Below, piece by piece: positions 8,975 through 21,660 of a DNA stretch of 64,000 bases. The DNA is taken from NCBI GenBank assembly GCA_026770025.1, contig JAMXDE010000006.1, forward strand, positions 62,001 through 126,000. The letters are read 5' to 3'. The position numbers were made by a program, and so were the translations under genes. Source of the DNA: Craspedostauros australis (taxonomy: Eukaryota > Bacillariophyta > Bacillariophyceae > Mastogloiales > Achnanthaceae). The notes under the pieces are model-generated. The model was not told the DNA's origin. It saw only the letters and a program-made list of their open reading frames with translations, and made no database searches. How positions within the stretch are numbered: position 1 is the first letter of the stretch; every line of letters begins with the position of its first letter.

Positions 8975-11857
8975 ATGACAAAACACATAAAATTTAAAAA
9001 GAAGCAGAGCGCTTACAAGACCAGCATGACGCCAGTGACACAGGACGACGATGGCGACCCCTCCCGCAACAAACAGCGGAAGAAACAGGTGAATTTCGGA
9101 GGAGTTGAGATTTCGGGCACACCAAACAACGGTATCGCCAAAAAGCAGGCAACGTGGACGGAAGCGGAAGAGAAAGAAGTCAAGAGGAAGATGGAGATGA
9201 GCAACGCCAAGCCGTACCCGGAATGCGTGGGAGCAGGAGACTCCATCAACACGGCATGGAGAGTGATCCGCAACTACCTCGAGTGCGAAAGAGGTGATCT
9301 GGAGACCATGGAGGAATGGACCGAGGTATTCAAGAAAGGGAAAGCCTGCCATTGGGACGCAGCCACCAACCAGAAGGTGCAGCAGATGGAAGCTCGCCTC
9401 CTGGCCACGAAAGCTGATATGTTCCCACCGGTATTCTGGAAAGAAGGGAATATCATGGGTAGCATCATGACCAACCCATGGATAGCCGCCCGAGTAGTCA
9501 ACAAAACCACATCGATCGAGTCACCAGAGAAGCGACACAGAATCAGCGGAGACAACAAGCTGGAAAAGACCGCAATGACGCCAATCAAAGCAGGCACCCA
9601 ACAAACACGCAAAACAGAGCAAAAGCCAAAGTCCAAAGCTAGCACGGCTACGCAGCGCCAACCTATCAACACCACCGCAAAGAAGAGGCAAGAGTGCACG
9701 AACAAAAACCCATACAAGAAGGGTTCTCCAACATTCGCAGAAGCCCTGAAATCAACCCCAACTACAACAGGTAAAGATGGGCCAACACTCCTTCCAGCCA
9801 GCCAGTTCTTCCTCAGCAAGCCAATGGTGAAAAAGGACCACAAGCGCAACGTCAACGAAGCATTGGGACGGAATTTCAGTACCTACTGTACCTTCCGCAG
9901 CCCCACCTTGAAAGGCAAAGACAAGTCCGTGGAGAAAGAAGTGACCGAAGCAATGGCCACCCTCATGGAGCACCTGTTCACGCAAGACCCAGACCTGATC
10001 ATACACCGATGGGATGGACAAGGCCAAGGACTGACAGCCGACAGTGACAAGGTGACCTCGGTTTCCAAAATCAGAAACTACGTGAACAAGATGTACACAA
10101 AGGCGGGCAAGCAAACATGGTGCCGTTTCTACTTCTCACACAACAAGGAGTGGGCAGAGCTACAGGACGACGGACACCTTCAGGACAACGACATCATACT
10201 TTCCAAGTGCACAGTCCAAGCAAGAGAAGAGGTGCCAGTAGGCTGGTTCTGCGCCAGCCACAGATCGACCAATTGCAACGACTTAACAGAGGCCATCAAC
10301 AACCTGGAGGACATGGTGAAGGCAAAAGTCAAGGTGGGTATACGCATGCAGTCAATCAAGCTGGACAAGTACGAGAAGGTGAAGAAGGAGGACCAGGTTT
10401 ATGCCGCACACATCCTTGCAAGTAAGGAAGATGCCATCAAGTGTGAACAGCTCATGGGGAAACTTTTTGCAGCGGGCAAGAACAGGATCCTGGGCAAGCG
10501 CCTCCGATTCATCTCGGACCTCACCGATGAACAACGCCCAGCAACACACGAGGACAGGCGCAACGCGATGCTGTACAAAAAGAAGCAGAAAGAATTCCTG
10601 GAGAACACAAAGACCACCATCGTTTCCTTCATCCACGGCCTCAACTACGTAGAACCAAAGAACAAGGTATCCCTGAGAAACGTCCTCTCCAAACTCATGT
10701 CGACATCAGGAGATAAGGACGGGTCAGTGCTATTTCTGGCTGTTGAGAATGGCAGGAACTGGGGCGACACAGTGTTTGTCTACAGCCAGGACGTCGCAGA
10801 GGAAGCCAGCATGATAATCCCACTGCTGCCCACGGTGGTGTACAAGTACTGTGGCGGCAAAGCAGCCACCTGGTTCACAGATTACATCTGGGATGCCAAC
10901 ACGAGCTACGAGATGAACATGCACGGGGAGGTAATCAAAGCGGATTGGGAACGGGACATCCTCAAGAAACAGGTAGACGACGAATGGTACGCCAGCATGG
11001 GACTACAACGCCCGGAAGACGACAAAGAGGAACCTGAAAACAAGCAACCCAAGATGACCTTTGCGATAGACTTCGGGACCATACCCAAAACCATGGACGG
11101 CGACCACGGATCCGTGGGTGTGATGCGAAGGTGGCACAACTGCGACGACGCGTCCCTAAGGTCCGCCATCACTTCGATGAAATCGCAATGTCCAGAAGCG
11201 AAGAAAGAGACAATGCGGGTGGTGGGTGAAGCAATGAAAAAGCTAGAAGTGATCGACCCGGAGGCCAGGGCCCAATGGATGGAAGCTATTCTTGGTCCCG
11301 GTGCGGCGAGTACAGCCAAAGCCGCGGCAGGCATGGCGGTATCCCTGCCCAACAGCGACGAACCCGAAACGCCCCCGGAAGGAAAGGACGTCGACAGAGC
11401 CACCAAGACACTCGAGGAACTGCAAGGCAGGAGCAAAGCCAATGACTTCATGGAAGCTGAGGATGACGGGTCAATGTCCGATGTATCGATGGGATCAGCC
11501 CCTCCTTATCAGGTACAGGATAACGCCGCCCCCGCCGAAGTAGTCAACCTGGTCGACCTTTCATCAGACGATGACTCAGGGACCCCGTTTCCTCGACTGA
11601 CCACCAGGAAAATGAAGACCAGGGCGCAAGCCAAGAAAAAAGAAAGAGAAGCTTGCGGTTCCAAGGTAGAGGAGCGCCACCATGGTGAGGCCACCATGAA
11701 GCGTGCGGTTAGCCCGATGAAGAAAGCCAGACCAAAAACCGACATCCCAGCAACAGACAACAACGGGCCACCTGTGCGGCCAACAAAGCAGACAGAACTT
11801 TCTGCACCCACAACAGGTTCAACCGCCAGCGACTCGAAGATCGCAGGCCAAGAATGA
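8975..11857 (+). CDS. LINE ORF1 protein (960 aa), uncharacterised RNA-binding-type
   Basis: First ORF of the element, expected to coat its RNA by analogy with other LINE ORF1 proteins. The N-terminus is rich in Lys/Arg/Gln. The middle (roughly residues 285-690) is a folded-looking region with landmarks YCTFRSPTLKG, VPVGWFCASHRS, AAHILASKEDA, ILGKRLRFISDL and YIWDANTSYE; the same order of landmarks recurs in the ORF1 at 61839. No gag-type CCHC knuckle was seen. Near residue 858, EVVNLVDLSSDDD has the form of a SUMO-interacting motif, followed by a basic tail (KMKTRAQAKKKERE) that could be a nuclear signal. ATG 8975 follows a 128-bp leader. The stop overlaps the ORF2 start (ATGA), suggesting termination-reinitiation. 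Confidence 0.85.
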   Translation: MTKHIKFKKKQSAYKTSMTPVTQDDDGDPSRNKQRKKQVNFGGVEISGTPNNGIAKKQATWTEAEEKEVKRKMEMSNAKPYPECVGAGDSINTAWRVIRNYLECERGDLETMEEWTEVFKKGKACHWDAATNQKVQQMEARLLATKADMFPPVFWKEGNIMGSIMTNPWIAARVVNKTTSIESPEKRHRISGDNKLEKTAMTPIKAGTQQTRKTEQKPKSKASTATQRQPINTTAKKRQECTNKNPYKKGSPTFAEALKSTPTTTGKDGPTLLPASQFFLSKPMVKKDHKRNVNEALGRNFSTYCTFRSPTLKGKDKSVEKEVTEAMATLMEHLFTQDPDLIIHRWDGQGQGLTADSDKVTSVSKIRNYVNKMYTKAGKQTWCRFYFSHNKEWAELQDDGHLQDNDIILSKCTVQAREEVPVGWFCASHRSTNCNDLTEAINNLEDMVKAKVKVGIRMQSIKLDKYEKVKKEDQVYAAHILASKEDAIKCEQLMGKLFAAGKNRILGKRLRFISDLTDEQRPATHEDRRNAMLYKKKQKEFLENTKTTIVSFIHGLNYVEPKNKVSLRNVLSKLMSTSGDKDGSVLFLAVENGRNWGDTVFVYSQDVAEEASMIIPLLPTVVYKYCGGKAATWFTDYIWDANTSYEMNMHGEVIKADWERDILKKQVDDEWYASMGLQRPEDDKEEPENKQPKMTFAIDFGTIPKTMDGDHGSVGVMRRWHNCDDASLRSAITSMKSQCPEAKKETMRVVGEAMKKLEVIDPEARAQWMEAILGPGAASTAKAAAGMAVSLPNSDEPETPPEGKDVDRATKTLEELQGRSKANDFMEAEDDGSMSDVSMGSAPPYQVQDNAAPAEVVNLVDLSSDDDSGTPFPRLTTRKMKTRAQAKKKEREACGSKVEERHHGEATMKRAVSPMKKARPKTDIPATDNNGPPVRPTKQTELSAPTTGSTASDSKIAGQE

Positions 11858-14800
11858 GGGTACCCTCAGAGCCAACCAAGGGTGGTGAACCAAGACCGGA
11901 ATCCACCCAACTGGTTAGAGGGAGGAAGAATGGGGTAGAGACCCTGCAAGGCAAAGGGAGGCAGCAATCAAAGGAAGAAGGACAGCGAGAAATACATACA
12001 AGAAAGGACGAGCGGGAAGACACAAGACCGAGTAGGGAGACAGTGCACATCCCGGGACGAACAGAGACCGGCGTAGGTGAGGACCAACGACCGTTCCAGA
12101 GGATCAGAATACCTAACAACCAAAAAAATAAACAAAGAGAGACAACTTTACAGCCGGCCCGAAACGGCCGCAACAGACAGAAAAACCGGAAAAGGCAGGA
12201 GACACGCGAGACAGACGACGGCAACAGTCGGGCCCCAGCGGATAAAGACCCAACACCAGCAAACACAACACAAATCATGCCCGAGGACGGTATTTTCGGC
12301 AATACAATGAGGCAACCGCGCGCGGGTGCAATCAGGATCGCGTTCCAAAACATTGGGAGGTTGCCGGTGGAGCCATGGCGACGCAAGAACAGCCAAATTG
12401 GAGAAGAAATACGACTAAGACACATTCACGTGCTCATGATGGCGGAAATTGGACTCAACTGGAAGTCAATGAAAACCGGGGATTCATGGGCCAGAAGAGC
12501 GGTGAAGTGGGGAGGACACTCCAAGGCTAGCGCTGCCTACAACCGCAACAGCCCACACTCGAGCAAAGTGCAGTTCGGAGGAACAGGAATCGTAACGTCA
12601 AAATACCTTTCCAAGCGAGTGGTCGACGAAGGAGAGGATCCGGACAATCTGGGGCGATGGGTGTGGCAGCGAATAGAGGGTCGAAAGGGCAAGCACATAC
12701 GAGTGGTGGCAGCCTATCGAGCATGCACATCAAGCCGACCAACTTCCACATGGGCCCAGCAGCGCACCTACCTGCTTGGGCAAGGGGATGCAAGGGAGCC
12801 AAGGGAGGCAATGCTTCTCGACCTCGCACGGAGTATACGTGAGTGGAAGCAGGACGGCGACAGTGTGGTAGTCGGCATCGACGCAAACCAAGACATTAAT
12901 GAAGGCAGATGCGCGGAAGTGTTCAGCGAGTTGGGTATGCGTGAAGCAACCACGTACATGCACCCCAACCTACAAAGGCAAGCAACACAGCACCGCAACA
13001 TGAACCATATCCCGATCGACGGTATATACGTAACCAACGACGTCGAACTTATGGAGGCCGGCTACTTGGGTTTTGGAGAGTCCATTGACTCCGATCACAG
13101 GATGGTATGGGCCGACATCAAAGAGTCAAGTACCATTGGTGTCCTAAACCCGCTGGTGGGAGTGGAGCCAAGACGTCTACGGATGATGGACGCAACGGCG
13201 GTAAGCGAGTACCAGAGCACCCTGTGGGGCAAGGCGCAACAGAGAGGGTACCATTGGAGAATCGAGGAGCTCGAGAAGGCCGTCCGTACCCAAGGCGGGG
13301 TCACCACTGAGCTAGCCAAGGAGTACAACGCCATTGATGAGGGGATGGACCAACTCCGAGTAGAAGCAGAGGCGGAATGCAGAAAGCTGAGAATGGGGGC
13401 ACTGGAATGGTCACCGACACTACAGCGGCTTAGAGACGAGGTCAAGCTTTGGACAGCGGTGTGGAAAAAACAGAACAACATCCACATCAGCTCGTCCCTT
13501 ATAAAGAGGCTGGCCAAACGACTGAGGATTCACAGGCCGCGCCAGCTGTGCCCGGAACAAGTAAGAGAGAAGATGGACGCCTCCAGGAAGGCCTACGTAG
13601 CCGCCAAACCAACCGCATCCCAACTGCGTGACGATTTCATGATATGCAAAGGAGTGGAAGAATCAGCAAGGTGGGGTACGGCACTGGAAAGCACGGCGAG
13701 CCATATTCGCAGAATGAAGGAGCGCCAAATTAGAGACAACCGGCGTCTCAAGGCATGCCTCAAGCCCAAGCAAACGCTGGCCACCAAGGTCACAGTCACC
13801 AGGAACGACGGGGAGTTGACAGTGTGCGATACTAAGCATGCCATCGAAAAGGCGTGCATCGTGGAGAACAAGAAACGGTTCAACCAAACATCGAGCACCC
13901 CGTTCATGACCGGCGACCTGCGGCGTCGATTTGGTTTCCTCGCAGACACTGCGGCAGCCGACCGAGTATGTGAAGGGAAATGGAAGCCCACGCCAACGAC
14001 GGGCGAATATCCATGTATGCTGCTGACGCAAGTAGGATCCGCCCCTTCCGCGGTGCCCAACACCTCGTTTACAGAACAAGACCACATTGATGGATGGGCA
14101 AAACAGAAGGAATGGACATCGTCAGAGCCGTCGGCCCCCCACTTTGGGCACTTCAAGGCAGCGGCCCAGCACGACGGGCTTGCGGCGATCGACTGCCGCC
14201 TGCGTAGGATTCCATATGAGACAGGATTCTCCCCCGCATCGTGGAGAGTGATGACCGACTTCCAGATCCTCAAGAAGGCTGGAGTGTTCGACGTGGCGAA
14301 GATGCGAACCATCCAGCTATTCCACCCCGCCTTCAACATGAACAACAAGAAACTGGGAAGAGATCTGATGCAAACAGCTGAAAGCAACGGCCGCATGGCG
14401 ACGGAGCAGTTTGGTAGCCGTAAAGGCCACAAGGCATCCACAGCCGCTCTGTGCAAGAGAATAGTAGTCGACGTCATGCGGCAAAAACGGCAAAATGGGG
14501 CCATTTGTTCCAACGACGCAAAGTCGTGCTACGACAGGGTGGTCCACAGTGTGGCATCGATGGCCATGGTACATGCCGGCGGCAGGCGGTCGGCGGTGAA
14601 GTCCATGTTTAGCACTCTGCAAAAGGCGGAACATCACATACGCACGGCATACGGGGTGTCCGCCAGGACCTACGGCAATTCGGGATGGGTGCCAATGCAG
14701 GGCTTAGCCCAGGGCAACGGCTGTGGGCCAGCGGCTTGGGCTGCCATCAGTTCGCCTATGTTCGAGGCCATGCGCACCCAGCGTCACGGTGCGAGCTTTG

Positions 14801-17800
14801 TTTCAGCTCTCAGCCACAAGCAAGTGGATCTGGTGGGCATCAGCTTCGTGGACGACGCAGACCTGATGGTATCAAGACCGGGTGAGTCCTTCGAAACGGT
14901 GACGCAGCGAACGCAAAAAGCATTGGAGGACTGGGAAGGCGTACTACGGTCGACGGGAGGTGCCTTAGTCCCGGCAAAAAGCTTCTGGTGGGGCTTGTCG
15001 TTCGACTACGTTGCTGGGAAATGGCAGATGAAAACAACAAGGGCAGCTCCGGCGCAAGTGCAGGTACGCGACGCGCACGGTGTCAACAGGGAGTTGAGGC
15101 GGCTTGATCCCAACGAGTCTGAACAAACCCTGGGAGTGTTTATGAACATGGTAGGCACATCTGAGGCTCAAGTCAGTTACCTACGGCGGAAGGCCGAGGA
15201 GTTTGCAGACAGGGTGGTCTCGGGAGGGTTGCAACGCGACCTCATATGGATGGCGATCACCACGCGAATAACCAAGACATTGGAATACCCTATGGAGGCA
15301 GTGACGCTCAACCAGCGTCAGTGGGACTTCGTGTACGCGCCAGTATGGTCCAAAGCCTTACCGCGCGGTGGTGTGGCCCGGACATTCCCGCGTGCGGTGT
15401 TATTTGGACCCAAGGCGAATGGCGGTATTGGCATGCGCAATCCCATGGTGTGGCAGTTGGCTACTCAGGTCCAAGCAATGGCGCACGAGGTTAGCACAGG
15501 ATCAATTACGGGCAGAATGATCGAGCTATCGATTGAGCAGGCGAAGATGGAGACGGCAGGAGGGGGATCTCTGTTCAAGCAGAGTTTTGCCGATTGCGGT
15601 AACTACGTCACAGCGTCGTGGGTGACGCAAGTGTGGGCGAACGCGCAGAGGTTTGGCGTGTCGATCGAAGAGAAGGGACCGTGTGTCCGGAGACAGCGAG
15701 TCGGTGACGTGTTTCTCTTGGACAGCTGGCGTTGCCAGGGGTTCAACGACAGGCAAAAAGGAATGCTGAACGAATGTCGCATGTTTCTAAGAGTCAGGAC
15801 GCTTTCAGATATGGTGACAGCAGATGGCTCCCGGGTCATGCGGGTTGCGTTCCAAGGGACAGATAGTGGAGCCACGACGTCAGCAGGCCACCCGCGCATG
15901 CCTCGAAGGCTGACCCGGCGACATTGGCTGTTGTGGCAAGAGTGGATAGAGGGTTTCACGGAGGACCGCCACCTGCGGCTCCGGCGGCGTATGCAAGCGT
16001 GGATTCACGACGATCACGGCTGGGTGTGGTGGCGTGATCCTGACGACGAGTACAGGGCATGGCGACGGGTGGGCCAAGGTTTCCAAGTATGGCAAAGTCA
16101 CCAGGGCAGGCGTGGGCGCCGACCGGAGTTTCAAGCTACGGCAACGTCGATACAGGAGCTTCCGGCAAGGGCTCGGCGTACTTCCCCAATGAGCTCAGGT
16201 CATTCTACGGTGAGGCTCGAGGCATTGGAGCGGCAGCGGGTGGGTGAGACTTTGCCCTCGACGTTCCAGAGGGACGGGCTCGATTCAGGTCAGTATTGGG
16301 AGCGCGGGCATGTATCCGGCGATGCAACGGACTCGGAATTGCGCGCGGCGTTGCGCCGAGGCGATGTGTTGGCGGTCAGTGACGGGTCGTTCAAAATGGG
16401 CTTCGGTACGTCAGCGTATGTCCTTAGTGTGATGGACTCAGGCGTACAACGCACAGGGTGCAACGTGGTGCCCGGGGAGCCGGCAGTGCAGTCGGCATAC
16501 CGCAGTGAACTGGCGGGAGTAGCTGGGGTACTACGCGAGCTGCTGGAACTGGAGAAGGGCGGGAGTCTAGGGCAGGGTCTAGTGGTCGTCGGTCTTGACG
16601 GGATGAGAGCTATGGAGAACTGTCGAGACGGGGTTGCGCAGGTGCACCAGCCGTCCTATGACATGCTCGGTCACATCAAGGCTATGCGTCAGCGGTTATC
16701 GATAGAGGTACGGTTCCGCTGGGTCCGTGGGCATCAAGACGACGGGCCAGGGCGGCTGGACCGCTGGGCGCTTCTCAATGTTCACTGCGATGGAGCGGCC
16801 AAACGGTACTGGGAGGCTTCAGTGGGCAAGCCAAAGCCTGTGTGGCGGAGCGAGGGATCCTTCCAATGGAGCTTGCGGATACAGGGCACCAAGTCTTCGT
16901 GGGCAGCGTCTGGCATCCATGACGAGGTCGTGGGTGCTACTGTTGAAGGTTACTGGGGCAGGAAGCTCGGGGTGGTTCGACAAGCCAGCGAGTCCACTGC
17001 TTGTCACGGGCGACGCAAGGCGCACGGCAGGGCATCTTGGCAGCAACGCATCTTTGTGGCCAAGATGGCCACCGGGTTCATCGGCGTGGGGGCGAAACTC
17101 AAACAGTACGGTGTCGAGGAATCGTGTCCGTGGTGTGGGCAATCCGAGACGGCAGTGCACGTGGTTCGGTGTGCAGCGTCGGGGCCGGCATGGGAGGCCT
17201 GCTTCCAGCAGTACGTGGAGGAGTTGGAGCTCATCGGAACGAGCGGGCCTATGGTGAGCTACATATTTGCGAGCCTAAGATCATACTGTGGGCGATCGGT
17301 GCGCGATGGTTTCAGTGAGGTGACGCCCGTGCAGTGGTGGCCCATACTGTTGGGCTGGATCCCGCAGGAGTGGTGCGACCAGCAAGCGGAGTGGTTCGAA
17401 CAGTACGGCACAGGGCGGCGGTTCTACACGATTGAGTCTTGGGCCCGCGACGCGGTGCTAGCGGGCTGGCGGTTCGTGCATGGCATGTGGAGGTGCCGTA
17501 ACAGAGTCAAGAGTGCGACAGTCAAGGCTCTTGCTGTGGCGCAGGCGTCGATGGACGCGGTGACAGAGGAGACCGAGCGTTCCCGTGGGTTCGTGGGCTG
17601 GAACCGTCTCGACAGGGCGGTGGCAGAGCATGGATCTGACGCAGCCTCGATGGCCGGCGAACATACAAGGTCGGCGTGGCTGCGGTTCGTACGAGCGGTT
17701 AGAACAGGTGGACCCGACGCGTGGGTTGGCGACGGCATCGGCGACCTGGGTCCGACTGCCGGCAATCCGGTCACAGCGACAGGAAATCAAGAAGCGGCAC

Positions 17801-17940
17801 CAACCGACGCGAGTGCACAGGGTCAGTGTTCGGCGGTGGTGGACGGTAACCCAGCCGAAGGCGCCCAGGCCCAAACACAGGCCGCCTGCGGCGGCCTGTG
17901 TAGGGCAGAGCGCCTTCGGCTGGGTACGATAGGAGGTTGA
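11854..17940 (+). CDS. LINE ORF2 polyprotein: AP-endonuclease, reverse transcriptase, RNase H
   Basis: A 2028-aa enzyme for target-primed reverse transcription. A basic, Gln/Arg-rich lead of about 155 residues precedes the AP-like endonuclease: AFQNIGRL (about 161), AEIGLNW, VGIDANQDIN, and IDSDHRMVWADI with the SDH signature (about 413). Reverse transcriptase follows: NDAKSCYDRVV (about 888), GLAQGNGCGPAAW, and the catalytic box FVDDAD (about 998). RNase H has DEDD-type landmarks: AVSDGSFKMGFG (about 1508), YRSELAGVAG, VGLDGMRAME and RWVRGHQDDGPG (about 1625) with a later Asp. A zinc motif CPWCGQ-x5-HVVRC (about 1759) sits after RNase H, as in many LINEs. The frame is intact. The last 30 codons overlap hairpin 1. 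ATG 11854 overlaps the ORF1 stop. Confidence 0.95.
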   Translation: MRVPSEPTKGGEPRPESTQLVRGRKNGVETLQGKGRQQSKEEGQREIHTRKDEREDTRPSRETVHIPGRTETGVGEDQRPFQRIRIPNNQKNKQRETTLQPARNGRNRQKNRKRQETRETDDGNSRAPADKDPTPANTTQIMPEDGIFGNTMRQPRAGAIRIAFQNIGRLPVEPWRRKNSQIGEEIRLRHIHVLMMAEIGLNWKSMKTGDSWARRAVKWGGHSKASAAYNRNSPHSSKVQFGGTGIVTSKYLSKRVVDEGEDPDNLGRWVWQRIEGRKGKHIRVVAAYRACTSSRPTSTWAQQRTYLLGQGDAREPREAMLLDLARSIREWKQDGDSVVVGIDANQDINEGRCAEVFSELGMREATTYMHPNLQRQATQHRNMNHIPIDGIYVTNDVELMEAGYLGFGESIDSDHRMVWADIKESSTIGVLNPLVGVEPRRLRMMDATAVSEYQSTLWGKAQQRGYHWRIEELEKAVRTQGGVTTELAKEYNAIDEGMDQLRVEAEAECRKLRMGALEWSPTLQRLRDEVKLWTAVWKKQNNIHISSSLIKRLAKRLRIHRPRQLCPEQVREKMDASRKAYVAAKPTASQLRDDFMICKGVEESARWGTALESTASHIRRMKERQIRDNRRLKACLKPKQTLATKVTVTRNDGELTVCDTKHAIEKACIVENKKRFNQTSSTPFMTGDLRRRFGFLADTAAADRVCEGKWKPTPTTGEYPCMLLTQVGSAPSAVPNTSFTEQDHIDGWAKQKEWTSSEPSAPHFGHFKAAAQHDGLAAIDCRLRRIPYETGFSPASWRVMTDFQILKKAGVFDVAKMRTIQLFHPAFNMNNKKLGRDLMQTAESNGRMATEQFGSRKGHKASTAALCKRIVVDVMRQKRQNGAICSNDAKSCYDRVVHSVASMAMVHAGGRRSAVKSMFSTLQKAEHHIRTAYGVSARTYGNSGWVPMQGLAQGNGCGPAAWAAISSPMFEAMRTQRHGASFVSALSHKQVDLVGISFVDDADLMVSRPGESFETVTQRTQKALEDWEGVLRSTGGALVPAKSFWWGLSFDYVAGKWQMKTTRAAPAQVQVRDAHGVNRELRRLDPNESEQTLGVFMNMVGTSEAQVSYLRRKAEEFADRVVSGGLQRDLIWMAITTRITKTLEYPMEAVTLNQRQWDFVYAPVWSKALPRGGVARTFPRAVLFGPKANGGIGMRNPMVWQLATQVQAMAHEVSTGSITGRMIELSIEQAKMETAGGGSLFKQSFADCGNYVTASWVTQVWANAQRFGVSIEEKGPCVRRQRVGDVFLLDSWRCQGFNDRQKGMLNECRMFLRVRTLSDMVTADGSRVMRVAFQGTDSGATTSAGHPRMPRRLTRRHWLLWQEWIEGFTEDRHLRLRRRMQAWIHDDHGWVWWRDPDDEYRAWRRVGQGFQVWQSHQGRRGRRPEFQATATSIQELPARARRTSPMSSGHSTVRLEALERQRVGETLPSTFQRDGLDSGQYWERGHVSGDATDSELRAALRRGDVLAVSDGSFKMGFGTSAYVLSVMDSGVQRTGCNVVPGEPAVQSAYRSELAGVAGVLRELLELEKGGSLGQGLVVVGLDGMRAMENCRDGVAQVHQPSYDMLGHIKAMRQRLSIEVRFRWVRGHQDDGPGRLDRWALLNVHCDGAAKRYWEASVGKPKPVWRSEGSFQWSLRIQGTKSSWAASGIHDEVVGATVEGYWGRKLGVVRQASESTACHGRRKAHGRASWQQRIFVAKMATGFIGVGAKLKQYGVEESCPWCGQSETAVHVVRCAASGPAWEACFQQYVEELELIGTSGPMVSYIFASLRSYCGRSVRDGFSEVTPVQWWPILLGWIPQEWCDQQAEWFEQYGTGRRFYTIESWARDAVLAGWRFVHGMWRCRNRVKSATVKALAVAQASMDAVTEETERSRGFVGWNRLDRAVAEHGSDAASMAGEHTRSAWLRFVRAVRTGGPDAWVGDGIGDLGPTAGNPVTATGNQEAAPTDASAQGQCSAVVDGNPAEGAQAQTQAACGGLCRAERLRLGTIGG
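17849..17925 (+). repeat. LINE 3' hairpin 1 (inside ORF2 end)
   Basis: Inverted repeat with a perfect 16-bp outer stem (17849-17864 with 17910-17925) and a perfect 12-bp inner stem, ACACAGGCCGCC (17875-17886) with its complement at 17890-17901, closing a TGC loop. It overlaps the final ORF2 codons, so sequence and fold are jointly constrained. It is a diverged copy of hairpin 2 downstream. Confidence 0.9.
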
Positions 17941-17980
17941 CAAGAAGTGAAGTCGTTGCTGACCGGATTGGCGAGCCAAC

Positions 17981-18060
17981 GCCCCATCCGAAGGCTCTCT
18001 GCCCATACACAGGCCGCCTTTGGCGGCCTGTGTATGGGCTTGAGAGCCTTCGGATGGGGC
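17981..18060 (+). repeat. LINE 3' hairpin 2 (3' UTR)
   Basis: An 80-nt near-perfect inverted repeat: 19-bp lower stem (17981-17999 with 18042-18060), a 1x2-nt internal loop, and an 18-bp upper stem (18001-18018 with 18022-18039) closing a TTT loop. It shares its upper-stem core and lower-stem CCGAAGGC block with hairpin 1. By analogy with LINEs whose reverse transcriptase recognises a 3' stem-loop, it may be the template recognition structure; that role is inferred. Confidence 0.92.
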
Positions 18061-18220
18061 TGGTGGGCGCCGACGGGTTGGCGATCTGGAAGGAAGCGTG
18101 GTGGGCGCGATTATCTGTGGTATACTCGACCTAGCCGGAGCCGTGTGGCGTGTGCGGGCGAGTCTAAAGCCCTCGGGGCATTCCCTTCTATGGGTTTAGT
18201 CATTGTGAGTTATTATTATT

Positions 18221-18236
18221 AGTGAGGGTGGAAGAT
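18221..18236 (+). repeat. Right target-site duplication of LINE
   Basis: Exact copy of 8831-8846, immediately after the (TTA)n tail, fixing the 3' end of the element at 18220. Confidence 0.92.
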
Positions 18237-19321
18237 GAGCGTCAGTGTTGCCAGCACCTGCCGTCGACGGACTTGCGGAATGGCGAAATTTTGGCAAAAA
18301 AAGTCGAGATACGCATCTGTTCGGTGAGACGTTGAAGTCGACGCCATCACTCGTGACCTGACTGAAGCCATTGGAAGTTCCACTGAGTCATCAGCGTACG
18401 CAGAGAGTTGGTGTCAAGAGAAACAAAGTCACAAACCCTCACCTCAAACAACGGACAGCTCCCATTGGGCAAGGCGCGGCCACCACCACGACCGCCACCT
18501 CTCTCTGACTACTCACTCGCGCGAGCATTTCGGCGATGTCGCATGACCTGAAGAGATGGCAAGCACACCACCACCACCACCACATCCCCGTCAGCAACAA
18601 CGCAGTTCGGGTTGAGCAGAGATCTTAATTTGTACGCGATGAGAATTGTGTGAGAACTTTTTTTGTCGACGAAGTGGACGTTGTGACGCATCAACCGCAT
18701 CATCATTGACATCGCTGAGTCGAGAGAACTGTCGACTGCGGGTTGAGCTGCATAGCATTGGTAGAGTGCCGGTACAAGGACTGAACCACCTCTCTTTCTC
18801 TCCGCTTCCCCTTGTCTCCTTTCTTCCTTTCTTCCTTCGACGATCTTCCTCATCCTTCGTCTCCGGAGACTTGCCAGCAATCCATCCACTCACCGTTGAC
18901 ACATCTCTGCTCATCGAGTCATAACACCACCAGCGTCAGAGGACATCATCATCAGACGAAGCATCAGAAGCATTTAAAACATTCGGAGCATCAACAGCAT
19001 CACAATCGAGTCTTCAGGTATTGTAAGTCGGGCATCGGTCGAACGGTTCAGTCATTCATCCCTCATCTTCCAACTCCACTCTGGCTCCCATCTTGGATCT
19101 CTGTCGCGAAGCTTCATCTCTCACAAATCCCAAACCGAAGCAAAGTCTCTGACTCAATCAGCCAACAAGCCAATCAGTCAACCAACGAGCCAACTCACCA
19201 TCTTGCACCACATTCCCACGCACGATACTCACGTTTGAACAGAAGCAGCAACATTCCGATAGTATATCACTCTCTCACAATCTCACACACAGACACAAAC
19301 AGTCACAAATAAATCATCACC
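18237..19321. other. Intergenic region and 5' leader of FtsH gene
   Basis: No gene recognised. The last few hundred bases are CA/TC-rich (repeated CATCA and CTCACA words), typical of a leader, and end in ATCACC directly before the FtsH ATG. Open frames on the minus strand (for example 18509-18889) are low complexity and match nothing recognisable. Confidence 0.5.
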
Positions 19322-21660
19322 ATGAAGTTCGCAATCACAGCCGCCATGAGCCTCCTGCTCGCAGAGAGCGCCTCCGCTTTCGCTCCATTCACACCCATGA
19401 CAAGCTACCAGTCGTCGTCATCGTCTGCCGTCTTCATGGCCGTGGACATGCCACCTGCTGCCAACACCAACAGCAACCTCCCAGTCATCCAGCAGAACCA
19501 GTACGGACCAAGCGATGTGCGATACTCCGACTTCCTCAAACTCGTCGACGGCGACCGCATCGAGAAGGTCACCTTCTCTTCTGACGGAACCCAGCTCCTT
19601 GGAGTCGATGTCGATGGTGCCCGTCTCAAGATCGAGGCCCTCCCAAATGACCCAGGTCTCTTGACTCAGCTCACCGACCACAAGGTACGAAAGCACGATG
19701 GCAGACATGCAGACGCATCAACGTGCGAATCCAAAATTCAGCCTGCGTTAGTCACAAGATTGAAAGATGGATCCTGTCGCGTACGATTTCATTTGGGGAT
19801 CTATTGCGTCGGTTCAGCCTGATTGGCATCGAAATGAAATGTGTGCTGGCCAATATGCTTCATTATGCACACAGCCACAGTACGCACAACTGAGGAACGC
19901 CCATCATTAACCAAGCACTCACCCCATTTTTGCCGATTTCCATTAATTACACCAACTACCAACTTCAATTGCGCCATCGGCAACACCCACAACAACAGGT
20001 CGATGTCACTGTCCTCCCAACCCAGGAGGCCGGTGGACTCGGTGAGCTCGCGCAGAGCCTCATCTTCCCAGCAGCCCTCTTTGCTGGACTCTTCTTCCTC
20101 AGCCGACGATCCGGCGGCCAGGCCGGCGGTGGCATGGGCGGAATGGGTGGACAGAACCCAATGGGATTCGGAAAGAGCAAGGCCGAAATCCAGATGGTCC
20201 CAGATACCGGCGTCAGCTTCGATGATGTCGCCGGATGCGACGGTGCCAAGCTCGAGCTCGCGGAGGTCGTCGACTTCCTCAAGCAGCCAGAGGCATACAC
20301 CAAGAACGGATGCCGCATCCCACGTGGTGTCATCCTTGACGGACCACCAGGAACAGGAAAGACCCTCCTCGCCAAGGCAGTCGCCGGAGAATCCGGTGTC
20401 CCATTCATCAGCATCTCAGGATCCGAATTCGTGGAGATGTTCGTCGGAGTTGGAGCCTCCCGTGTCCGTGACATTTTCGGGCAGGCCAAGAAGAACGCCC
20501 CATGCATCATCTTCATCGATGAGATCGACGCCGTCGGTCGCCAGCGTGGTGCCGGATACGCCGGAGGTAACGACGAGCGTGAGCAGACCATCAACCAGAT
20601 CCTCGTCGAGATGGACGGTTTCGCCGGAAACCCAGGTATCATCACCATCGCCGCCACCAACCGCGTCGACATTTTGGACCAGGCCCTCTTGCGTCCAGGA
20701 CGTTTCGATCGCAAGGTCACCGTCGACCTCCCAGACTTCAAGGGCCGCACCCGCATCTTGGGCGTCCACTCCCGCGGCAAGCCTTTGGAGCCAGATGTCG
20801 ACCTCGAGGCCGTCTCGCGCCGTACTCCAGGATTCTCCGGAGCCCAGCTTGAGAACCTCATGAACGAGGCCGCCATCTCCGCCGCCCGCAAGGCCAAGAG
20901 CACCATCGGATGGGAGGAAGTCGATGGAGCCATCGATCGTATCATGGTCGGTCTCGAAAAGAAGGGTGGCAACCAGGTCGCCAAGCAGAAGGAGCTCGTC
21001 GCCTACCACGAGGCCGGACACGCCATCGTCGGTGCCCTCGTGCCAGACTACGATCAGGTCCAGAAGATCACCATCATCCCACGATCCAACGGAGCCGGAG
21101 GATTGACCTTCTTCGCACCACAGGAGTCTCGCCTCGAGTCCGGCATGTACAGCAAGCAGTATCTCGAGTCCCAGCTCGCCGTCGCTCTCGGAGGACGTCT
21201 GGCGGAGGAGATCATCTACGGTGAGGACATGGTCACCACTGGTGCCTCCAACGACATCCAGCAGGTGGCCAGCACCGCCAAGCGCATGGTCAAGGAATGG
21301 GGAATGAGCGACAAGGTCGGGCGCGTCGCGCTGGACGAGCCATCCGGCGGAGGTCCATTCATGGGACGCATGATGTTGCAGGGCCAGACCAAGTGGGGTG
21401 ACAAGCTCATGGGAACCGTCGATACCGAGGTCGAGAGACTGGTGAACAACAGCTACATCGTGGCCAAGAAGATCCTCAGCGACAACCGTGAGTTGCTGGA
21501 GCACGTGAGCCAGGTCCTTATCGAGCAGGAGGTCGTTTCCGCAGAAGAGTTCCAGATGATGTTGGTCCAGTTCAAGGCGCAGACAATCGACTACGGTATC
21601 ATCGGAGAGGAGAAGAACCGCGACAAGCTTCCATTCAAGGGCCTCCCAACCGCCGTGTAA
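19322..21660 (+). CDS. ftsH: Plastid-targeted FtsH AAA+ zinc metalloprotease
   Basis: Membrane-bound ATP-dependent protease, closest by eye to plant thylakoid FtsH2/FtsH8, which degrade damaged photosystem II D1 protein. Exons 19322-19684 and 19999-21660 flank intron 19685-19998 (AAG/GTACGA to CAACAG), giving 674 aa. The N-terminal signal peptide ends ASA-FAP (Phe20), the stramenopile plastid bipartite targeting motif. A stroma/lumen-facing N-domain, one transmembrane segment ([18 protein letters not shown]) and a Gly-rich linker follow. The AAA module has Walker A GPPGTGKT, Walker [14 protein letters not shown] and the second region of homology ([20 protein letters not shown]). The protease zinc site is [12 protein letters not shown]. 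Codon use is extremely biased (Pro almost always CCA, many GGA Gly), unlike its neighbours, suggesting high expression. Confidence 0.95.

Follow-up and report, generated by a model that had tools for sequence, protein, structure and literature searches.

The window, by which we mean the whole stretch of 64,000 nucleotides that was analyzed, carries a LINE retrotransposon extending from approximately 8975 to 18221 (Table 1). Its assignment to the LINEs, proposed at the outset from the sequence, is borne out by a reverse transcriptase match in ORF2 (RVT_1, aa 808-1027; E 3.7e-8; 33.8 bits, cut-off 29.6) and by an exact common 3' end: the copies C1, C4b, C22 and C3 of a related family, here called B, are alike into the (TTA)n tract, after which their flanks diverge. 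ORF2 additionally gives weak matches to Exo_endo_phos (E 0.013; 15.7 bits, below the cut-off of 24.5) and RNase_H (E 0.084; 13.5 bits, below the cut-off of 25.8), while for ORF1 Pfam gives nothing up to E 5. The overlap of the two genes would suit termination-reinitiation. No relatives were found among viral contigs, by reverse transcriptase protein or by hairpin core pattern, or in the PDB for an 800-aa stretch. Over the region compared with copies C2 and C14 (12501-18225), private changes of the window copy number 425 in the 4176 sites upstream of 16700 (43 and 61 in C2 and C14, respectively) and 85 in the 1347 sites downstream of it (35 and 30); this unevenness possibly reflects a mosaic between subfamilies. 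PF03842, the silicon transporter family, is matched 88 times in the genome; approximately 30 matches are nearly complete in length, and several lie near one another on C2, C9, C24 and C61; none of 14 control genomes gave a match over the cut-off. Together with the protein at 19322 of the window, which begins with what we take to be a diatom-type plastid-targeting motif, these matches suggest a diatom genome.

Table 1. Coordinates of the LINE genes and of the elements of its 3' region in the window
Feature	Position	Strand	Remarks
LINE ORF1	8975..11857	+	960 aa; its stop codon and the ORF2 start share ATGA (11854-11857)
LINE ORF2	11854..17940	+	2028 aa; RVT_1, with weak Exo_endo_phos and RNase_H matches; stop TGA at 17938-17940
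HP1	17849..17925	+	Coding hairpin in the last codons of ORF2; -70.5 kcal/mol; 87.3 bits with hairpin model R1, which was built with this HP1 among its sequences
Spacer HP1-HP2	17926..17980	+	55 nt; holds the ORF2 stop; 11/55 changes vs C2
HP2	17981..18060	+	3' UTR hairpin; 37/37 counted pairs Watson-Crick; 0/80 changes vs C2
HP2 with outer extension	17971..18069	+	-92.3 kcal/mol; place and outer stem resemble the single hairpins of C64 and C35
LINE 3' tail	18118..18221	+	CUCG...CGAG, UAAAGCC..GGCA, variable segment, UAGUC, GAGUUAUU; the element terminates here in (TTA)n

The core of the original prediction was a pair of hairpins 55 nt apart at the 3' end of this element, one coding and one in the 3' UTR. 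Both are confirmed by their arms and by the fold: for the 231-nt hairpin region the fold energy is -170.9 kcal/mol, and shuffled sequences average -98.9 (z -13.4; 0 of 200 shuffles). HP1 (77 nt), whose 3' end lies 12 nt before the ORF2 stop, comprises a perfect upper stem of 12 bp and a pair of 29-nt arms which are 83% complementary. HP2 (80 nt) has two perfect stems of 19 and 18 bp, and its 3' end lies 161 nt ahead of the end of the element. The two G-C to T-A changes described between the hairpins are both present, and a third paired difference, A-T in HP1 and C-G in HP2, belongs to the outer stem (columns 10-88 of alignment A1). The expectation that no arm changes without its partner holds for these three pairs and fails in places, namely at columns 26-72 (C-A in HP1, T-A in HP2) and columns 24-74, where HP1 of C2 and C14 has A-C and the window copy G-C. 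A search of Rfam with 17000-18400 of the window returned 12 matches with E of 1 or less, none of them above its own gathering score.

In stringent-type LINEs the 3' loops are shorter than HP1 and HP2, and the stem-loop lies within a tail common to elements of the recognized kind. Unlike such a recognized stem-loop, HP1 and HP2 are upstream of the shared tail. Seventeen loci belonging to other LINE families in the genome were read, with about 37-46% reverse transcriptase identity to the window LINE. Thirteen of them (L068-L072, L075-L082) carry a tail of this kind, made up of CTCG...CGAG, TAAAGCC..GGCA, a segment that varies, TAGTC or TAATC, and GAGTTATT; no tail was seen in L073, L074, L083 and L084, and not one of the 17 gives a match to R1. 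Some of these families keep frames open over 1849 aa and occur in several copies of equal score. Twenty-two tails, 10 of them from other LINE families, were aligned (A2), leaving out L069, L072, L076 and three B copies as near-duplicates; the tails of C88 and C6 escaped the search behind this alignment. The consensus fold keeps four pairs, none with a double change. Folded singly, two of six tails clearly beat their shuffles (z -2.5 and -2.9), and four, including that of the window, are no better than theirs (z -0.02 to -0.9). What is shown for the tail is conservation of its sequence, not of a structure. Since LINE families without hairpins have this tail of ~100 nt in common, the hairpins are probably not a general reverse transcriptase signal, and template recognition, the first of the possible roles put forward for them, is not upheld as the leading one. 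The simplest reading would be that the tail is the recognition signal and HP1 and HP2 an accessory structure; the four tails that fold no better than shuffled sequence count against this reading as far as recognition by shape is concerned.

A search of the genome (74.8 Mb, 90 contigs) with the tail gave at least 17 loci, and all 17 were read. Both hairpins are present in six (the window copy, C2, and the B copies C1, C3, C4b and C22) and one hairpin in five (C14, C64, C35, C33 and C45). No hairpin was found in the tail-bearing loci C21, C45b, C28, C88, C34 and C6, several of which are decayed or truncated. ORF2 frames of at least 1940 aa are open in six copies, of which five (the window copy, C2, C1, C3 and C4b) have both hairpins and C14 has HP1. 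The latter belongs to the same family as the window copy and has a 1940-aa open frame; 63 of the 80 nt of its HP2 are missing, with GAGCC flanking the gap on both sides. The supposition that equally young copies would not lack a hairpin thus stands for five of these copies and breaks down for C14. HP2-like hairpins occur without HP1 in C64, C35, C33 and C45, which speaks against the simple tandem duplication originally envisaged. At the expected HP1 site C64 has CCCAGCC-TCT-GGCTGGG, and its ORF2 ends in SLWLGMVGD, without the HP1 peptide; in C35 the right flank of HP1 is present and the left arm absent. The C33 hairpin (L065 1167-1231) occupies the corresponding place; its lower arms are unlike those of other copies in sequence, with almost perfect pairing.

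The exact core GGCCGCCNNNGGCGGCC occurs at 10 sites genome-wide, all inside this LINE lineage (control pattern 0), and misses the hairpins of C64, C33 and C45 and HP2 of B. A search with R1 over 68 sources, in which the 22 loci overlapping these sources were left out, recovered C33 (E 1.2e-6) and C45 (E 5.8e-5), neither of which was used in building the model, and gave no match at E up to 1 outside the lineage. A pattern allowing two mismatches also matched at C16, C21 and C58 (control: one forward and one reverse match); among these loci, R1 gives no match in L030, L031 and L033.

One check suggested at the outset was whether 5'-truncated copies always retain both hairpins. Two such insertions, C21 and C45b, hold the tail alone, but because truncation arises during reverse transcription they are uninformative on the requirements of the RNA. 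Both truncated tails lie inside another, non-coding repeat [L085 (C45:470122-470846) and L086 (C21:259691-260420)]. A SINE partner, that is, a LINE tail joined to this repeat, was considered and rejected, as sister copies of the repeat are without the tail: seven others join query position 586 to 693 (92-97%), and an eighth, C37, does so more loosely. From these empty sites, in a comparison that scored 40 of 212 candidates, the tail of C21 and C45b is a truncated LINE insertion of ~100 nt carried by another repeat.

The unusual conservation of HP2 is supported. Between the window copy and C2 there are two changes in the 77 nt of HP1, 7/100 downstream, 24/429 in nearby ORF2 and 0/52 in the tail; the unchanged HP2 contrasts with 18/155 in the two flanking stretches (p 0.0005), and both hairpins differ from the flanks plus ORF2 at p 0.0036. 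HP1 can be compared between B and family A, that of the window copy: 13 of 15 fourfold sites and 18 of 21 codons are identical, compared with 160/476 fourfold sites and 339/840 codons kept in the remainder of the last 1330 ORF2 codons, and none of 820 codon windows is as alike as HP1. The encoded peptide is identical at 21 of 26 residues. Third codon positions in one arm of HP1 lie opposite first positions in its partner arm, such that coding and pairing together could freeze both.

Either constraint or exchange may explain why HP1 is so similar in A and B. In a tree of ORF2 from which the HP1 columns were excluded (columns filled for C35 41%, for C45 29%; bootstrap inside the lineage 84-96), A plus B as a single clade is rejected (AU p 2.5e-52), and with it a single recent gain of HP1 in their ancestor. 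Since A and B both have HP1 and are not sisters, it must have been lost repeatedly, gained twice or exchanged. The minimum on the tree is two changes; an old gain followed by losses in C64, C35 and C33 plus C45 costs more, so that parsimony alone prefers two gains or exchange, whereas the stump in C64, possibly a remnant of HP1, favours an older origin. That recombination or two gains, rather than constraint, made HP1 alike in the two families is unlikely in our estimation, though with a serious chance of being correct. The tree and its two changes support it, and HP1 resembles its counterpart far more closely than the other compared codons do theirs, as recent exchange predicts. It has to contend with the stump and with the fact that A and B codons are unlike right up to HP1, which would require an exchange nearly confined to the hairpin.

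Covariation was assessed on a small sample, nine hairpins of which seven are distinct. Of the cells, 91.9% are paired, and 12 pairs have changed on both sides, a number reached by none of 500 shuffles; sliding the pairing partner as a control yields at most one double-changed pair. The covariation described between the two hairpins of one copy extends to other families; the step from it to selection on pairing is only partly upheld, since covariation by itself does not show such selection. Stepwise compensation should often go via G-U, which on the RNA strand should be better tolerated than A-C. Five of the 12 double-changed pairs are of the transversion type, for which a passage through G-U is impossible, and the cells that are not Watson-Crick comprise 11 A-C, 2 G-U and 11 others (counted by column, A-C 9 vs G-U 2, p 0.065). 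Mutation bias behind the excess of A-C was rejected, the rates outside the hairpins being too even (G>A at 156/1884 G sites, C>T at 93/1363 C sites), although the counts in the hairpins themselves are small.

The interior of HP2 appears to be reversed with respect to HP1. The HP2 core agrees with HP1 at 40/48 positions as reverse complement and at 35/47 directly, and flipped HP1 (41/48) is the nearest match to the HP2 core of family A, ahead of C35 (34/47), C64 (34/49) and HP2 of B (29/47). By orientation score, a signal that depends on few asymmetric nucleotides, HP2 of A is better reversed against all three HP1s tested (window -12, C2 -16, B -12), against C64 (-8) and against HP2 of B (-4), neutral against C35 (0) and slightly better direct against C33 and C45 (+4). 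R1 likewise scores HP2 higher on the minus strand (100.4 bits) than on the plus (94.5 bits), although it was built with the plus strand. A second flip, in C33, is tentative (-15 vs C45, -12 vs HP2 of B), its core being nearly even against C45 (31/49 reversed, 27/51 direct). The likeness of the two hairpins in the window copy fits a flipped copying of HP1 into HP2, and the matching arm changes look in good part as if one arm had served as template for its partner. With such arm-templated copying, the double transversions, the scarcity of G-U pairs and the apparently flipped interior agree no less well than with selection on pairing.

The reading we prefer, to which we would give almost an even chance, is that the hairpins are a lineage-specific accessory 3' structure, probably selected, whose arms have been partly rewritten by template switching. 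The reverse transcriptase would most likely recognize the tail downstream of them. A polymerase, either the reverse transcriptase of the element or the replication machinery of the host, would copy one arm from the other, giving rise to much of the perfect pairing and of the joint change, and would sometimes flip a hairpin interior or copy one hairpin into the other. Arm copying accounts for the joint changes, not for the low rate of change in HP2, for which reason selection is invoked for retention. It would keep at least one hairpin per element, because several copies have deleted hairpins and yet the six with the longest ORF2 keep one or two; retention in C64, C35, C33 and C45, which are single copies and several of them broken, may be inertia. 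The most likely benefit would be that the RNA gains a stable, folded 3' region, for protection or packaging, and we think template recognition or control of termination less likely. More specifically, the LINE reverse transcriptase might itself rewrite the arms during retrotransposition, by snap-back or by jumps among four interchangeable arms, in which case the structure would be self-repairing and the hairpins mutual inverted back-ups; this is conceivable, if on the unlikely side.

Were the hairpins self-perpetuating palindromes without function, switching would keep the arms alike and inheritance would keep them in the lineage. The flip, the likeness of HP1 and HP2, the transversion-type double changes, the loss in C14 and the missing HP1 of C64, C35, C33 and C45 all agree with this; furthermore, since exchange can also explain the similarity of HP1 between the two families, the case for selection is weakened and that for palindromes without function strengthened. 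Copying from arm to arm does not slow joint change, however, so the contrast between HP2 and its flanks is left unaccounted for, as is the presence of at least one hairpin in all six copies with the longest open frames, and we judge this explanation rather unlikely. More doubtful again is a recognition signal for the reverse transcriptase, with covariation built up by stepwise compensatory mutation under selection. The 12 double changes and the conservation of HP2 and HP1 are what it would predict, and stringent LINEs do require a 3' stem-loop (PMC4176376). Yet other LINE families have the tail and none of the hairpins, with long open frames and several equal-score copies among them; C14 is without most of HP2, and C64 and C35 without HP1; HP2 stops well short of the element end; and the scarcity of G-U pairs and the double transversions are not what stepwise change should leave.

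The remaining alternatives are considerably weaker. That HP1 is conserved for its peptide, pairing being a by-product of coding constraint on both arms, agrees with the residues shared by A and B, but synonymous positions are alike too, C64 does without the peptide and the non-coding HP2 is at least as well paired; we consider this highly improbable. Hairpins serving as Dicer substrates, whose small RNAs would feed or escape host silencing, would suit the long perfect stems, and there are sub-threshold matches to microRNA precursor models such as a long hairpin may give. With 0/12 matches at gathering score, this idea is equally improbable. The idea that a mobile palindrome of independent origin entered the LINE can point to hairpins that are short, self-complementary and present twice in one element; searches by DNA, by long pattern and by core pattern gave no convincing copy beyond the LINE lineage, and we reject this proposal as barely credible.

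Covariation is the usual evidence for a selected RNA structure. Here strong covariation bears the marks of arm copying, so that for palindromes in retrotransposons such tests may make selection look stronger than it is. The 3' end of the LINE separates into a shared tail, probably serving the reverse transcriptase, and a lineage-specific hairpin pair, one member of which lies in a gene. If the reverse transcriptase does rewrite the arms, the copying mechanism itself would regenerate both pairing and covariation.

Among the titles and opening lines of abstracts listed from the open-licence literature, no paired 3' LINE hairpins of this kind were found. Several known systems come close. Human L1 and Alu also have a stem-loop in the 3' UTR, for which a part in retrotransposition has been proposed (PMC5135761). 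In the stringent LINEs the ORF2 protein binds the stem-loop of the tail (PMC4176376). The stem-loops of UnaL2, ZfL2-1 and ZfL2-2 resemble HP1 and HP2 as structured RNA near a LINE 3' end, but are inside the recognized tail (PMC4176376), whereas HP1 and HP2 are upstream of the conserved tail, one of them coding, and were found in a single lineage.

Template switching has been reported to create and mend hairpins (PMC8794818), with near-perfect stems and joint arm changes as seen in HP1 and HP2, and with interior inversion such as HP2 appears to show. The authors of that paper term the evidence for stem maintenance circumstantial, and single compensatory changes, as well as changes with loop inversion, were not enriched over simulation. 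Its cases are microRNA and rRNA genes; in a retrotransposon, reverse transcription is one more occasion for switching, and where two hairpins are present either could be copied into its neighbor. In coding genes of yeast, template switching is reported to homogenize the arms of inverted repeats and to invert their spacers (PMC8604942), a counterpart within coding sequence to what is proposed for HP1, although those repeats are short and lie in host genes, and HP1 and HP2 are long hairpins of a mobile element. The palindromes of nematomorph mitochondria (PMC6649704) are, like HP1, perfect inverted repeats in protein-coding sequence with both arms translated; they are mitochondrial and reach 284 bp, whereas HP1 is found at the end of a LINE ORF2.
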